Shown one piece after another: positions 7,263-12,264 of a stretch of DNA of 36,342 nucleotides. Below the pieces are notes generated by a model that had not been told where the DNA came from, made no database searches, and saw only the letters and a list, made by a program, of their open reading frames with translations. This DNA is from Candidatus Zixiibacteriota bacterium (GTDB lineage Bacteria; Zixibacteria; MSB-5A5; GN15; FEB-12), in NCBI GenBank assembly GCA_024277795.1, contig JAJRUL010000119.1, positions 1 to 36,342 on the forward strand, written 5' to 3'. How positions within the stretch are numbered: position 1 is the first letter of the stretch; the number at the start of each line of letters is the position of its first letter. Position numbers and translations under genes: made by a program.

Positions 7263-7397
7263 TGCGGAAGATTTTTCATTCACATTCGGAAAAAACAAGC
7301 CATAACACACTTGGGCAATTAGTACGACTGAAACATCTGCCGTGTCAAATTGAAACAAGACAACGCCTTACACAACCTTCTTGATTATGTCTTTTTT
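7263..7397. other. Non-coding upstream region of the HisC-like gene
   Basis: No coding potential seen. It lies between the terminator and the sigma-54 promoter and is where an enhancer-binding protein would bind. TGTC-N12-GACA (in TGTCAAATTGAAACAAGACA) is a weak dyad about 50 bases upstream of the promoter. Confidence 0.35.
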
Positions 7398-7413
7398 TGG
7401 CAAGCTGGTTGCA
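7398..7413 (+). promoter_or_regulatory. Sigma-54 (RpoN) promoter of the HisC-like gene
   Basis: TGGCAAGCTGGTTGCA has the conserved GG and GC at -24/-12 with exact spacing to the consensus TGGCACG-N4-TTGCW. It lies about 110 bases upstream of the start codon. This is the second such site in the same locus, which strengthens both. Confidence 0.75.
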
Positions 7414-7521
7414 ATGATGAAATGTGTCAGCCCTATTACTGACATAAACAACCTGCTTACAGATTGAGAGCAGGTACGAACAGGGTGCACTATATGTCAC
7501 CCAGCAAGGAGTGTGATAGGT

Positions 7522-8571
7522 ATGGAGACCAGCATTACAAATCCAGTTGATATAGATGAGCTCGTTGCTCGCTTGAATCAACAAACAATGATTGCAGAGT
7601 CAAACGCTTGGCCGTTTGTCGATACGTCTGCCCTTATGGTTGATTTACTAAAAGGTGCATATGCAGTAGGCAGTCGCTTGATCAGCGCAGGTCACATTGG
7701 ACCTGAGATGGAGATTGTTGCCGATAAGGCAGAAATTGAATTGGTTGAAGCATTGGGACCGTCTCCTTTCAGTAGTGATACAAGGACTGTTATTGAGAAA
7801 ATAAATAGTTCACAAGACATATTATATGTTCCGTCGCCAAATAGAATTACTGGCACAACTTTTTCATTATCTGATCTCAAACTCTTGGCCGGTGCGGTTA
7901 CTGATGGCTTGATGATCGTAGATGAGTATTACTATGACTATTATGGGGTGACTGCTGAATTACTCCTATCAGATTATCCACATGTTGTCGTCTTGAGATC
8001 CTTTGCCGCTCCGTTCGGTATCGGTTCTTCGGATATTGGTTATGCTCTGGCAACTCCTGAAAAGATGAAAGACATTCGTCACTATTGTGAAGCTCGTCCA
8101 CTCTCAAGAACAGTTCGCCGTGCAATGCTCACTACGTTGGATAATGGTAAAGCACTTTCAATGAGAATTCGTGAAGTACATAGTGAATCATTACGTTTAG
8201 CAAATAAACTGACTCGTATGGGGGTACAGTGTCGTCTCACGTCAGCAGATTTTCTCTTGCTCAGGGTTGCAGATCCCTCGGCAATAGGTAATTCACTTGC
8301 CAGAACAAAAGTACCCATAATCAACTTAGATGGATACCCTGAGCTGAAGAACTACGTGGCGTACTATATTCAATCTGCAGAAACAAACGACAGATTGTTA
8401 CGCACTTTTGAACGAATTCCATACGAGAAATACCTCATGAAGAGCATAGATAAGCGTGCAATAACAATGAGGCTCAAAGGTGAGACACTTCGTTCAGAGC
8501 AAACTGTCAATCGGATATCCCGTTTTAATTCGAAGCAAACTATCTCTGAGAAAGAAGTTATTGAGGTCTGA
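7522..8571 (+). CDS. HisC-like fold-type I aminotransferase homologue lacking the PLP lysine
   Basis: The middle and C-terminal parts align with histidinol-phosphate aminotransferase (HisC)-type proteins: 'LMIVDEYYYDYYG' corresponds to the VDEAY motif that contacts the PLP ring, 'DYPHVVVLRSF' and 'GSSDIGYALATPEKM' to the strand-loop around the active site, and 'LLLRVADPSAI' to the C-terminal domain. In HisC the segment reads R-T-F-S-K-A-Y-G-L-A-G-x-R; here it reads R-S-F-A-A-P-F-G-I-G-S-S-D. The Schiff-base Lys is therefore Ala (residue 166 of the ORF track) and the phosphate-binding Arg is Asp. The 'NPNNPTG' motif is also degraded to 'SPNRITG'. The N-terminal part is poorly conserved. I infer a non-catalytic paralogue used for regulation or sugar-nucleotide binding in the polysaccharide locus. 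The start at ATG 7522 is chosen over GTG 7513, which is only two bases after AAGGAG. Confidence 0.7.
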   Translation: METSITNPVDIDELVARLNQQTMIAESNAWPFVDTSALMVDLLKGAYAVGSRLISAGHIGPEMEIVADKAEIELVEALGPSPFSSDTRTVIEKINSSQDILYVPSPNRITGTTFSLSDLKLLAGAVTDGLMIVDEYYYDYYGVTAELLLSDYPHVVVLRSFAAPFGIGSSDIGYALATPEKMKDIRHYCEARPLSRTVRRAMLTTLDNGKALSMRIREVHSESLRLANKLTRMGVQCRLTSADFLLLRVADPSAIGNSLARTKVPIINLDGYPELKNYVAYYIQSAETNDRLLRTFERIPYEKYLMKSIDKRAITMRLKGETLRSEQTVNRISRFNSKQTISEKEVIEV

Positions 8572-8750
8572 AAAGACCTATATAAAAATGAAATGCATAT
8601 TGTAACGGTGAGTAAAGATCAGCCTCGTATTGACGATAGATAAAAGTACGTTGGATAGGCGAAAGATTTATCCATCAATCGGGTGAAGCCGAAACAGGAT
8701 TTACAGAAGCCAATAGAAGAGTTTTGAAGAATCGACAACAGGGAAGTTAC

Positions 8751-10181
8751 GTGTCGAAGAAGCAACAACAAGAAACTAACATAGATCGCATAAAACGGAG
8801 GATGTTATTACATGCGATAGGGTCCGGTGGACGATTTATAGCGTCCTTAACTGCGATACAGATTCTATGTTATGTTTTTTCTGTCCCTTTAAATCTCAAT
8901 TTGCAAATTGTCTCAACACTGTTGATCATACGTGTTCTTGTTGAGTTGACAACATTTGAACCGAGAGTTCTGGAATCAAGTCTGGTACAAAAGCATTCAT
9001 TGCAGATACTCGGAACTGAGATACGTGTCAGTATTGCACTTTTTGCCTCATGTTGGTTATTCAAATGGAACATAGAGCAAAAGGTTATGCTCTATTTCTT
9101 CGGTTTGAACATTCTATTTCATTTTGTTCATCTTCTCTTAACAACGAAAGTTCTTAAGAGCTTGATGTACAAAAGAGGAAATGCTCAAGTTGTATCGAGC
9201 AATAGAGTTGTGATAGTCGGTACCGGTCAATGTGGGAAAGCGATTGCAGATATGTTGCTCTGTTCACCTGAGCTCGATGTTTCAATCGAAGGATTCTTAG
9301 ATTATCATCGAAAGGGCCTTTGGAGATATAGAGATATTCCACTAATCGGACATCCTGATATGTTGGAATCGATCATTGCGAAAGGACAACTCGATGCATT
9401 GATCGTTGCAACCGAACAGGAAGATCTCAAAAGAACAGGTTCACTTTTTTCAATCGCTGAAAAGATGGGTGTGACTATTAGTTTTGTTCCGACAATGTCA
9501 ACAAATTGCATTGCTCATCCAGTCCCGGCATCACTCAACGGTATGCCTACAATGTCTTACAGGTCAATCCCTGAAAATCGCCTTTCACTGATGGCAAAGA
9601 GTCTTTTTGATCGCGTGGGGGCGGCGATTGGATTGTTGCTTGCCTCTCCAATTATGCTTGCTTGTGCAATTGCGATTAAGTTGGAGAGTCCAGGGCCGGT
9701 TTTTTTCAGTCAAGTACGGTCAGGTCTCAATGGCAGAACATTTCGGTTGCTGAAGTTTCGGACTATGGTAGTTGATGCTGAAAAGAAGAAAGCAACATTG
9801 AATGATAAGAATGAAATGTCTGGTCCTGTTTTCAAAATTAGGAATGATCCGCGAGTAACAAGAATTGGTCGTTTACTGCGCAAGTTTTCTATTGATGAGA
9901 TACCGCAGTTTATCAATATCCTGCGTGGGGATATGTCGCTTGTTGGCCCGCGTCCACCATTACCATCAGAAGTAGAAAAATATGAACCGTGGCAACATAG
10001 GAAACTCTCAGTTAAACCCGGGTTGACATGTAAATGGCAGGTGAGCGGACGAAACAATATAGACTTTGAAAACTGGATGAAGCTCGACTTGGAATATATT
10101 GACAGTTGGTCTCTGTGGGAGGATACGAAAATTCTTGCACGTACACCAGTTGCTGTTCTCAAAGGGGACGGTGCTTCATAG
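8751..10181 (+). CDS. Polyprenyl glycosylphosphotransferase (initiating sugar transferase, WbaP/WcaJ type)
   Basis: The C-terminal bacterial sugar-transferase domain is complete. It begins at 'LFDRVGAAIGLLLASP', where a membrane helix precedes the catalytic part, and contains 'LKFRTM', 'TRIGRLLRKFSIDEIPQ', 'DMSLVGPRPP' and 'VKPGLTCKWQVSGR'. Upstream lies a Rossmann-like CoA-binding-type domain ('VVIVGTGQCGKAI'), preceded by several hydrophobic helices. This is the usual layout of undecaprenyl-phosphate sugar-1-phosphate transferases that start repeat-unit synthesis on the inner membrane. It lies downstream of the HisC-like gene in the same direction and may share its sigma-54 transcript. GTG 8751 has GGAAG close upstream; TTG 8724 is the alternative start (485 aa). 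The sugar specificity cannot be read from sequence. Confidence 0.88.
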   Translation: MSKKQQQETNIDRIKRRMLLHAIGSGGRFIASLTAIQILCYVFSVPLNLNLQIVSTLLIIRVLVELTTFEPRVLESSLVQKHSLQILGTEIRVSIALFASCWLFKWNIEQKVMLYFFGLNILFHFVHLLLTTKVLKSLMYKRGNAQVVSSNRVVIVGTGQCGKAIADMLLCSPELDVSIEGFLDYHRKGLWRYRDIPLIGHPDMLESIIAKGQLDALIVATEQEDLKRTGSLFSIAEKMGVTISFVPTMSTNCIAHPVPASLNGMPTMSYRSIPENRLSLMAKSLFDRVGAAIGLLLASPIMLACAIAIKLESPGPVFFSQVRSGLNGRTFRLLKFRTMVVDAEKKKATLNDKNEMSGPVFKIRNDPRVTRIGRLLRKFSIDEIPQFINILRGDMSLVGPRPPLPSEVEKYEPWQHRKLSVKPGLTCKWQVSGRNNIDFENWMKLDLEYIDSWSLWEDTKILARTPVAVLKGDGAS

Positions 10182-10293: not shown

Positions 10294-10845
10294 CTATTCC
10301 TCTAACTCGACACCGAGAGCATCGGCCATTCGGTTGACATAGTTGAAGTAAGAAACAACTTGTACAATATCATGAAGAATGTGATCATCAAACCCAAGTG
10401 ATCTCATACCATTGATATAATCCTGATTGATTGTATGTGCCTTGAGAGTAATCATTTCGGTATAGTCAAGTATCTGCTTATCGAAAGAAGATATATTGGC
10501 GGAACGCCAGTCGGTTGTCAGTTCGTTTTTCAAGCTATCATCACATAAGCGTTCACCAAGTTTTTTAAGAGACCGCAACGCGGTCCAGTGATGCTCAATT
10601 CAGTAATGGCATTTGTTTATTGCAGAAACAACAGTTGCAATCATCTCACGTTGTGCGCGTGATAATGGAGATTTTTGAAACATTATCGAGCGGTAGAACT
10701 CAACATGATGTTGCATTGCTTTCGGATTCAAACCTGCAATCCGAACGATGTTTGCGGGAGTGTAGTTTGCTCCACCGTAGGATTCATACAGTTTTTTCAA
10801 TTCATCAGATGCATCTTCGTATTCGATATAATCAATATAGGCCAT
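10294..10845 (-). CDS. AhpD-like peroxidase-related selenoprotein (Sec82 encoded by in-frame TGA)
   Basis: The track splits this gene into 10600-10845 and 10294-10578, but both are in one frame separated by a single TGA (10600-10602). Read through, it is a 183-residue carboxymuconolactone decarboxylase/AhpD-family 'peroxidase-related' protein. It starts 'MAYIDYIEYEDASDELKKLY', has 'PLSRAQREMIATVVSAINKCHY' before the TGA and 'IEHHWTALR' after it, and ends 'YFNYVNRMADALGVELEE'. The AhpD signature E-x11-C-x2-C-x3-H fits exactly as E67, C79, U82, H86, so the TGA replaces the second cysteine. A SECIS-like hairpin follows directly. AGGAG eight bases before ATG supports the start. AhpD-fold enzymes reduce peroxides or disulfides in the cytoplasm. 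A nonsense mutation of a Cys codon (TGC/TGT to TGA) is the alternative explanation. Confidence 0.82.
10571..10586 (-). promoter_or_regulatory. Bacterial SECIS-like hairpin for the AhpD-like selenoprotein
   Basis: On the mRNA strand, 20 nt after the TGA, GACCGC-GTT-GCGGTC forms a 6-bp perfect stem (7 with a G-U pair) and a three-base loop that starts with G. Bacterial SECIS elements are described as a hairpin with its loop roughly 16-37 nt after the UGA and a G in the first loop positions, which this meets. Confidence 0.72.
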
Positions 10846-10870
10846 TTATAATACTCCTGTCAGTTACTGC

Positions 10871-10905
10871 ATAAAAAAAGCCGGACTTATGCCCGACTTT
10901 TTTAT
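10871..10905 (-). terminator. Terminator of the truncated outer-membrane protein gene
   Basis: On the minus strand AAAGTCGGGC-ATAA-GTCCGGCTTT pairs fully if two G-U pairs are allowed, followed by a run of T. On the plus strand the same positions become C-A mismatches, so it is oriented leftward and lies just after the stop of the broken gene at 10920. Confidence 0.75.
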
Positions 10906-10919
10906 GCTATATGAGTTGC

Positions 10920-11209
10920 TTACATCGGAACGTAAAACGTTATTCCACCAGTTATAGTAACAAACGACGTTTTGAATCCAACTATCAGATTGGAGACATC
11001 TCTAATCTCTGTCTCTTCTGTATTGGCATAGACATACCCAAGCTCCCCGTTTATACTAAAGCTCGGTGACATCATGGCAACAATACCGATCCCTGCAAAG
11101 ACTCCAACAGTTGCTTTTGCTTCTATTTTTTCTGATGGAGATTTAAAGTCAAGTCCGGTTATATCAAGTCCCAGACGAAAAAACGGCCGAATGTTGCTTC
11201 CTGTCGATG
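10920..11209 (-). pseudogene. C-terminal remnant of an outer-membrane beta-barrel protein, cut by repeat and IS element
   Basis: Not listed in the ORF track. The minus frame ending at TAA 10920-10922 reads '...NIRPFFRLGLDITGLDF', 'AKATVGVFAGIGIVAMMSP', 'SINGELGYVYANTEE' and ends 'VTITGGITFYVPM'. These alternating strands are typical of small OmpW/opacity-like barrels. The gene is cut at 11209 by the IS. If the IS is removed, the frame continues only into repeat sequence and meets a stop about 100 bases further on, with no signal peptide. The N-terminal half is therefore missing. Confidence 0.6.
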
Positions 11210-12264
11210 CTGTATAAGTTAGTTAATTCGTAGCCAAAATTATAATATATTAAACATAAAGGTAATTTTGAGTTATGCGATTAAATAGCCAAGATAGTAC
11301 AATCAAGCGTAATTATCTTCAGAAGTATCGTTTTTTAATGAAGGAATATGAGTTAGTAAAAAAGAAAGAACATCCCAAATACAAATTTGTATGGGAGTTT
11401 TATGAATCAACAGATACTGACCGTCGGACATTTTTAAAGTATTACAATCGTTATAAACAAAGCGGTAAAGAGAGTGATCTTCTGCCACGTAAACGAGGTC
11501 CAAAATGGAAGAGCAGATGTCCTCTTCCGTTTATTGAGAATAAGGTTCTTTCGCTTCGAGAAAAAGGGTTGAATAGATATGAGATAATTCATATTTTAAA
11601 ACCGAAACTAAAAAGTCATACACCCTCACCGTCAGGTGTCTATAATATATTTAAGCGTCATAATGTAAATAGGTTACGTCCTCCAATGAAAGCAAATAAG
11701 CGATTGATAATTAAGAAAAAAGCTGGAGAATTAGGTCATATAGATAGTCATTACCTCTCAAAGTGTATTATTCACAGTGAGAGTCGACATCGTTACTTGG
11801 TTGTTGTTATTGATTCCTGTACTCGTGTTGCGTGGGCAGAGCTGGTTGATGACATTAAATCTCTGAGTGTAATGTTTGCGGCATTAAAATGTTTTAATAT
11901 CCTTGCTGATCATTATAATATCCGGTTTCAGGAGGTGTTAACAGATAATGGTCCAGAATTTGGAACAAAGGTTTCAAAGAAGAAAGATAATCATCCCTTT
12001 GAACGAATGTTGATGGAACTTGAAGTCAAACACAGATATACCCGACCGTATAGACCTCAAACAAATGGGAAAGCAGAAAGATTTTGGAGAACGATAGAAG
12101 AAAATTTGCTTCACGAAACAACCTTTGATTCAGTGGACGAATTAAAGGAAGAACTATTGCAATACCTCTACTATTATAATCAGGAAAGACCACATCAAGG
12201 TATAGGGGGAATAACACCTGTTGAATTTAACAAAAACTGTCCACGAATTACTTGACTTATACAG
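11210..12264 (+). mobile_element. IS481-like insertion sequence, intact, with 5-bp target duplication
   Basis: Terminal inverted repeats begin CTGTATAAGT on the left and end ACTTATACAG on the right; over about 27 bases the two ends agree except for five mismatches. The element is flanked on both sides by the direct repeat CGATG (11205-11209 and 12265-12269). It is 1055 bp long and contains one transposase gene. It inserted at the edge of a dispersed repeat next to the broken outer-membrane protein gene. Confidence 0.85.
11275..12255 (+). CDS. IS481-like DDE transposase (integrase core)
   Basis: A 326-residue transposase. The N-terminal ~130 residues contain helix-turn-helix-like segments ('RRTFLKYYNRYKQSG', 'RYEIIHILKPKL'), followed by an rve/DDE catalytic core. 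The likely catalytic acids are D157 in 'GHIDSHY', D224 in 'VLTDNGPEFG' and E268 in 'TNGKAERFWRTIE', and the C-terminus has the usual 'YYNQERPHQGIGGITP'. Length and motifs are those of IS481-type enzymes. No frameshift or stop is seen, and the inverted repeats are intact, so the element may still be active. It overlaps the right inverted repeat at its 3' end, as is common in compact IS elements. Confidence 0.9.
   Translation: MRLNSQDSTIKRNYLQKYRFLMKEYELVKKKEHPKYKFVWEFYESTDTDRRTFLKYYNRYKQSGKESDLLPRKRGPKWKSRCPLPFIENKVLSLREKGLNRYEIIHILKPKLKSHTPSPSGVYNIFKRHNVNRLRPPMKANKRLIIKKKAGELGHIDSHYLSKCIIHSESRHRYLVVVIDSCTRVAWAELVDDIKSLSVMFAALKCFNILADHYNIRFQEVLTDNGPEFGTKVSKKKDNHPFERMLMELEVKHRYTRPYRPQTNGKAERFWRTIEENLLHETTFDSVDELKEELLQYLYYYNQERPHQGIGGITPVEFNKNCPRIT

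Follow-up and report, generated by a model that had tools for sequence, protein, structure and literature searches.

A predicted AhpD-like selenoprotein of the CxxU type and its SECIS-like hairpin in Candidatus Zixiibacteriota

Comparison with related genes shows that positions 10294 to 10845 of the stretch analysed here (the window; 36,342 nucleotides of contig JAJRUL010000119.1) hold one gene, whose UGA codon is predicted to be decoded as selenocysteine (Sec) with a SECIS element directly downstream. Based on the comparative evidence this AhpD-like gene is almost certainly a selenoprotein gene, and the best explanation overall, which we hold with high confidence, is a Sec-decoded CxxU AhpD-like oxidoreductase.

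Gene model and features

With TGA read as Sec, the minus-strand frame from 10845 to 10294 encodes 183 residues, starts with ATG at 10845, ends with TAG at 10296-10294 and contains a single TGA (codon 82). Translation table 11 breaks the gene into two ORFs (10600-10845 and 10294-10578). The initial annotation, which left the strand unstated, had joined these fragments across the TGA as one gene and expected automatic callers to miss or split it; the joining and the split were both borne out. The following features were recognized:

10294..10845, minus strand: coding sequence of the AhpD-like (TIGR01926) predicted selenoprotein, 183 aa with U82; matches to TIGR01926 (E 1.6e-35) and CMD PF02627
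10600..10602, minus strand: in-frame TGA, predicted U82; TGA in all position-checked copies of the order, Cys codons in distant homologues
10570..10586, minus strand: bacterial SECIS-like hairpin with a 7-bp stem; from folds, covariation and further relatives
10854..10858, minus strand: Shine-Dalgarno sequence AGGAG, 8 nt before the ATG; from the sequence
10873..10899, minus strand: terminator-like hairpin with a T run, read from the sequence; separates the gene from an upstream minus-strand ORF fragment (10920-11222)

The position of the terminator-like hairpin between the gene and the upstream ORF fragment suggests that the gene is probably transcribed on its own transcript. A plus-strand gene at 10294-10845 was rejected because its translation contains internal stops, and the plus-strand fold of the same stretch was no more stable than its shuffles.

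Family, fold and proposed chemistry

The protein belongs to TIGR01926 ("peroxidase-related enzyme"), scoring 122.5 bits (cut-off 81.8) over residues 3-180, and also matched the CMD domain PF02627. The AhpD core E-x11-C-x2-C/U-x3-H is present, and the TGA falls at the second Cys of this signature (E67, C79-H-Y-U82, H86), as had been claimed; the homology said to continue on both sides of it extends over residues 1-183 in the homologue alignment. Scores against AhpD proper (TIGR00777; 15.2 bits, cut-off 191.95) and against the AhpD_rel_CFYUT (seleno)protein family NF041238 (65.6 bits, cut-off 175) were below threshold. The NF041238 proteins are likewise AhpD-related and carry CxxU, but they are longer (model of 357 positions) and have the motif CFYUT.

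AlphaFold2, supplied with 26 window and locus homologues, gave a model with a mean pLDDT of 94.5, whose best fold matches were 2prr, 6k40, 2pfx, 3c1l and 2oyo (TM about 0.8-0.85). These TIGR01926-type structures have the same fold and active-site pattern as this protein, and the two chains that were compared by residue, 6k40 and 2pfx, carry Cys at the position occupied by Sec in this protein. The spacing of the core residues is also that of Mycobacterium tuberculosis AhpD, whose proton relay and cysteine pair comprise Glu118, Cys130, His132, Cys133 and His137 (PMC3141380). The present protein is of another family; its third relay position is Tyr rather than His, and Sec takes the place of Cys133.

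The product would be a thiol/selenol oxidoreductase of the AhpD-like type (TIGR01926, CMD fold) with the motif C-H-Y-U. SelB would deliver Sec-tRNA(UCA) to UGA codon 82, guided by the downstream hairpin. Following the family mechanism, U82 would most likely attack as a selenolate, with E67 and H86 (and Y81) activating it as the proton relay does in AhpD; the substrate reduced would be a peroxide or the disulfide of a partner, and C79 would resolve U82 as a selenenylsulfide. A specific peroxide or disulfide role is favoured with modest confidence. Many CMD/AhpD-fold proteins have weak or no peroxidase activity, which counts against a peroxide role. A true selenoprotein acting instead as a disulfide reductase, as an adaptor for CoA or another low-molecular-weight thiol, or in other AhpD/CMD-fold chemistry is a reasonable possibility, though not the one we prefer: the debrominase Bmp8 and sestrin are among the fold matches and mycobacterial AhpD is an adaptor for AhpC (PMC3141380), but all AhpD relay residues are retained and the closest structures are labelled peroxidase-related or antioxidant, labels that are mostly putative.

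AhpD-like CxxU selenoproteins and a CMD-domain CxxU selenoprotein were named in the Sargasso Sea survey of 2005 (PMC1088965), the AhpD-like group was split into AhpD-like 1 and 2 in the GOS survey of 2008 (PMC2398784), and an entry in a 2026 review gives an AhpD-like protein with TIGR01926 and CxxU (PMC13188914). The initial annotation was correct that AhpD-like selenoproteins had been reported in bacteria, but the novelty it implied for CxxU in a peroxidase-related protein is not upheld, since the review entry already joins the two. The assignment of this gene to the known kind, as an additional member, is well supported: it has the same TIGR01926 model, the CxxU motif and a bacterial-type SECIS after the UGA. 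The cited members come mainly from marine metagenomes, whereas this one is from a Zixibacteria lineage and is linked to flavodiiron genes in relatives.

Decoding of the UGA codon

The gene has the attributes of a bacterial selenoprotein gene, namely a UGA at the Cys position of homologues, a bSECIS-type hairpin, and tRNA-Sec, SelA, SelB and SelD in the genome. The hairpin is GGACCGC-GUU-GCGGUCU, with the apical loop GUU at 10579-10577. Its stem begins 13 nt past the TGA and 20 nt lie between the TGA and the loop, in keeping with the proposed G-leading 3-base loop at the expected distance, and the stem has compensatory changes. Counted from the TGA, 58 nt have a folding energy of -18.2 kcal/mol compared to -9.85 +/- 2.28 for shuffles (z -3.66), none of 200 being as stable. 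An Rfam scan of the window gave no match at gathering thresholds.

Among 14 relatives 99.0% of the stem cells are paired, and in three stem pairs both bases change (A-U/U-G, C-G/A-U and C-G/U-A). Such double-sided changes occupy 10 cells, compared to 2.5 +/- 1.3 in shuffles (0 of 500). Stem covariation, measured in related sequences that keep three of the seven pairs constant, was 0.429, against 0.185 +/- 0.035 for shuffles and at most 0.122 for slid versions. In further relatives the two middle pairs change separately, giving GGAACGC-GUU-GCGUUCU in L095 and GGGCUGC-GUU-GCAGUCC in L098. With the stem changes, the amino acids encoded by the two arms change jointly, as from Thr-Ala-Leu-Arg to Asn-Ala-Leu-His. 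The loop-flanking codons GCG TTG are identical in all 14 sequences counted; elsewhere in these genes GCG makes up 21% of Ala codons and TTG 16% of Leu codons. More distant TGA copies (L011, L012, L014, L055 and L056) have different stems at about the same place. Stem pairing is kept through amino-acid-altering double changes, as expected of a SECIS element, and the hairpin is termed SECIS-like.

The initial annotation had made its reading depend on selB, selC and selD and proposed a genome search for selA, selB, selD and tRNA-Sec. When this was run, all were found in the same assembly. The tRNA-Sec (67.2 bits, over cut-off) has the anticodon TCA (UCA in RNA); selA (494.7 bits) and selB (330.7 bits), both over cut-off, are adjacent on contig C26; and selD scored 395.8 bits. 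The selD gene (L071, G000:C223:7736-8662) has one in-frame TGA of its own, and the SelD of this genome is probably itself a selenoprotein. Nearly all relatives have selA (60 of 61 with a match, 54 over cut-off), so its presence alone does not predict the AhpD-like gene and co-occurrence is uninformative.

A profile search of 81 genomes of the order returned 29 matches; 28 of these, among them each of the 23 close copies, have one TGA, and in every copy placed on the alignment the TGA is residue 82. It was also found in the named collection, in two Zixibacteria records, one Eisenbacteria record and two further MAGs (L009, L010, L011, L012 and L014), where the alignments of L009 and L010 are identical to those of G002 and G031 of the order set and probably represent the same genomes. 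Residue 82 is encoded by TGC or TGT in distant homologues from Saprospiraceae, Flavobacteriaceae and a Thermoplasmatota MAG. The alignment suggested earlier, to see Cys or TGA at this residue, thus gave TGA in relatives and Cys codons farther away. All of 26 sequences share E67, C79, Y81, H85 and H86, with either Cys or Sec at residue 82.

UGA readthrough occurs in bacteria, and the codon might instead be read by a near-cognate tRNA or as Trp, have another meaning in a changed code, or serve as a regulated stop. This is very improbable given the full Sec pathway in the genome, the hairpin kept by compensatory changes, and distant homologues that have Cys at this position and never Trp. That the TGA stands in place of an expected Cys codon through an error in sequencing or assembly, or because the gene is a pseudogene in decay, can practically be dismissed. 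The TGA is one base from TGC or TGT and the assembly is a fragmented draft of 252 contigs, but the same TGA recurs across many genera and families in genomes that were assembled independently, a pattern that an isolated error or pseudogene cannot explain. Cys is absent from this position in all close homologues, the rest of the protein is intact and conserved, and the downstream stem is conserved as well.

Other in-frame TGA codons were also noted. A scan of the window for other TGA-joined ORFs gave no convincing case of a further selenoprotein; the one long candidate (7381-8571) is an aminotransferase ORF continued upstream past its first start, with the TGA outside the matched domain. This TGA, at 7465, is probably due to chance. 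The HisC-like aminotransferase itself (7513-8571, plus strand) matches from near profile position 112-126, and its N terminus may be truncated or divergent. A distant AhpD-like paralogue (L104/L059, G019:C4:11810-12190) has a TGA at the Sec position and a GC-rich hairpin after it; Gly-Ala-Pro replaces Cys-x-x, which would leave Sec without its usual partner Cys. A second TGA-bearing AhpD-like type, MGC-H/D-Y-U-x3-H, occurs in two genomes (L062, G019:C12; L101, G065:C1), with a CCGCGGUGCGG hairpin after the TGA. A third has the motif NGCVHU-T-A-x-H (L099, G053:C569; L102, G076:C19), and the protein of L057, at the same place as L099, scores over the TIGR01926 cut-off.

Genomic context and the flavodiiron link

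In the window the gene stands alone. On one side is a sugar transferase gene (8724-10181, plus strand) and on the other, past a short ORF fragment, an IS-type integrase with rve domains (11275-12255, plus strand). The presence of this integrase near the selenoprotein gene might be related to operon break-up.

In five relatives (L042, L043, L046, L047 and L050) the AhpD-like gene is immediately preceded, in the same orientation, by a gene for a flavodiiron protein (PF19583 ODP plus flavodoxin), and in a sixth (L049) by a contig-end fragment of one. An alpha/beta hydrolase gene of one family was found upstream of the flavodiiron gene in L081 and L085, and with genes between in L078 and L080; in L010, L082 and L083 the hydrolase is directly before the AhpD gene. 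The genome of the window has a hydrolase (MAKLSRQTKE...)-flavodiiron pair elsewhere (G000:C122, L086 3526-5854), without the AhpD gene that comes after this pair in L078, L080, L081 and L085. The simplest reading would be an ancestral hydrolase-flavodiiron-AhpD(Sec) block which was broken in this genome.

Flavodiiron proteins are a family of O2/NO reductases. Their recurrent linkage in relatives points to a role against oxygen, peroxide or nitrosative stress, and this context suggests that the AhpD-like selenoprotein may protect an oxygen-sensitive bacterium against such stress. That the Zixibacteria protein is a dedicated redox partner of the flavodiiron protein, forming a selenium-dependent arm of O2/NO defence whose ancestral block was split in this genome, is a rather unlikely extension. 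A literature search for flavodiiron proteins with AhpD gave no description of such a partnership, and papers on selenoproteins and flavodiiron proteins together, judged by title, concerned other organisms.

The analysis corrects the gene model where automatic callers give two genes and adds a well-supported predicted selenoprotein to a little-studied bacterial lineage. It also offers a clear example of a putative SECIS stem constraining the amino acids which it overlaps, and the flavodiiron linkage provides a testable hint to the role of AhpD-like selenoproteins.
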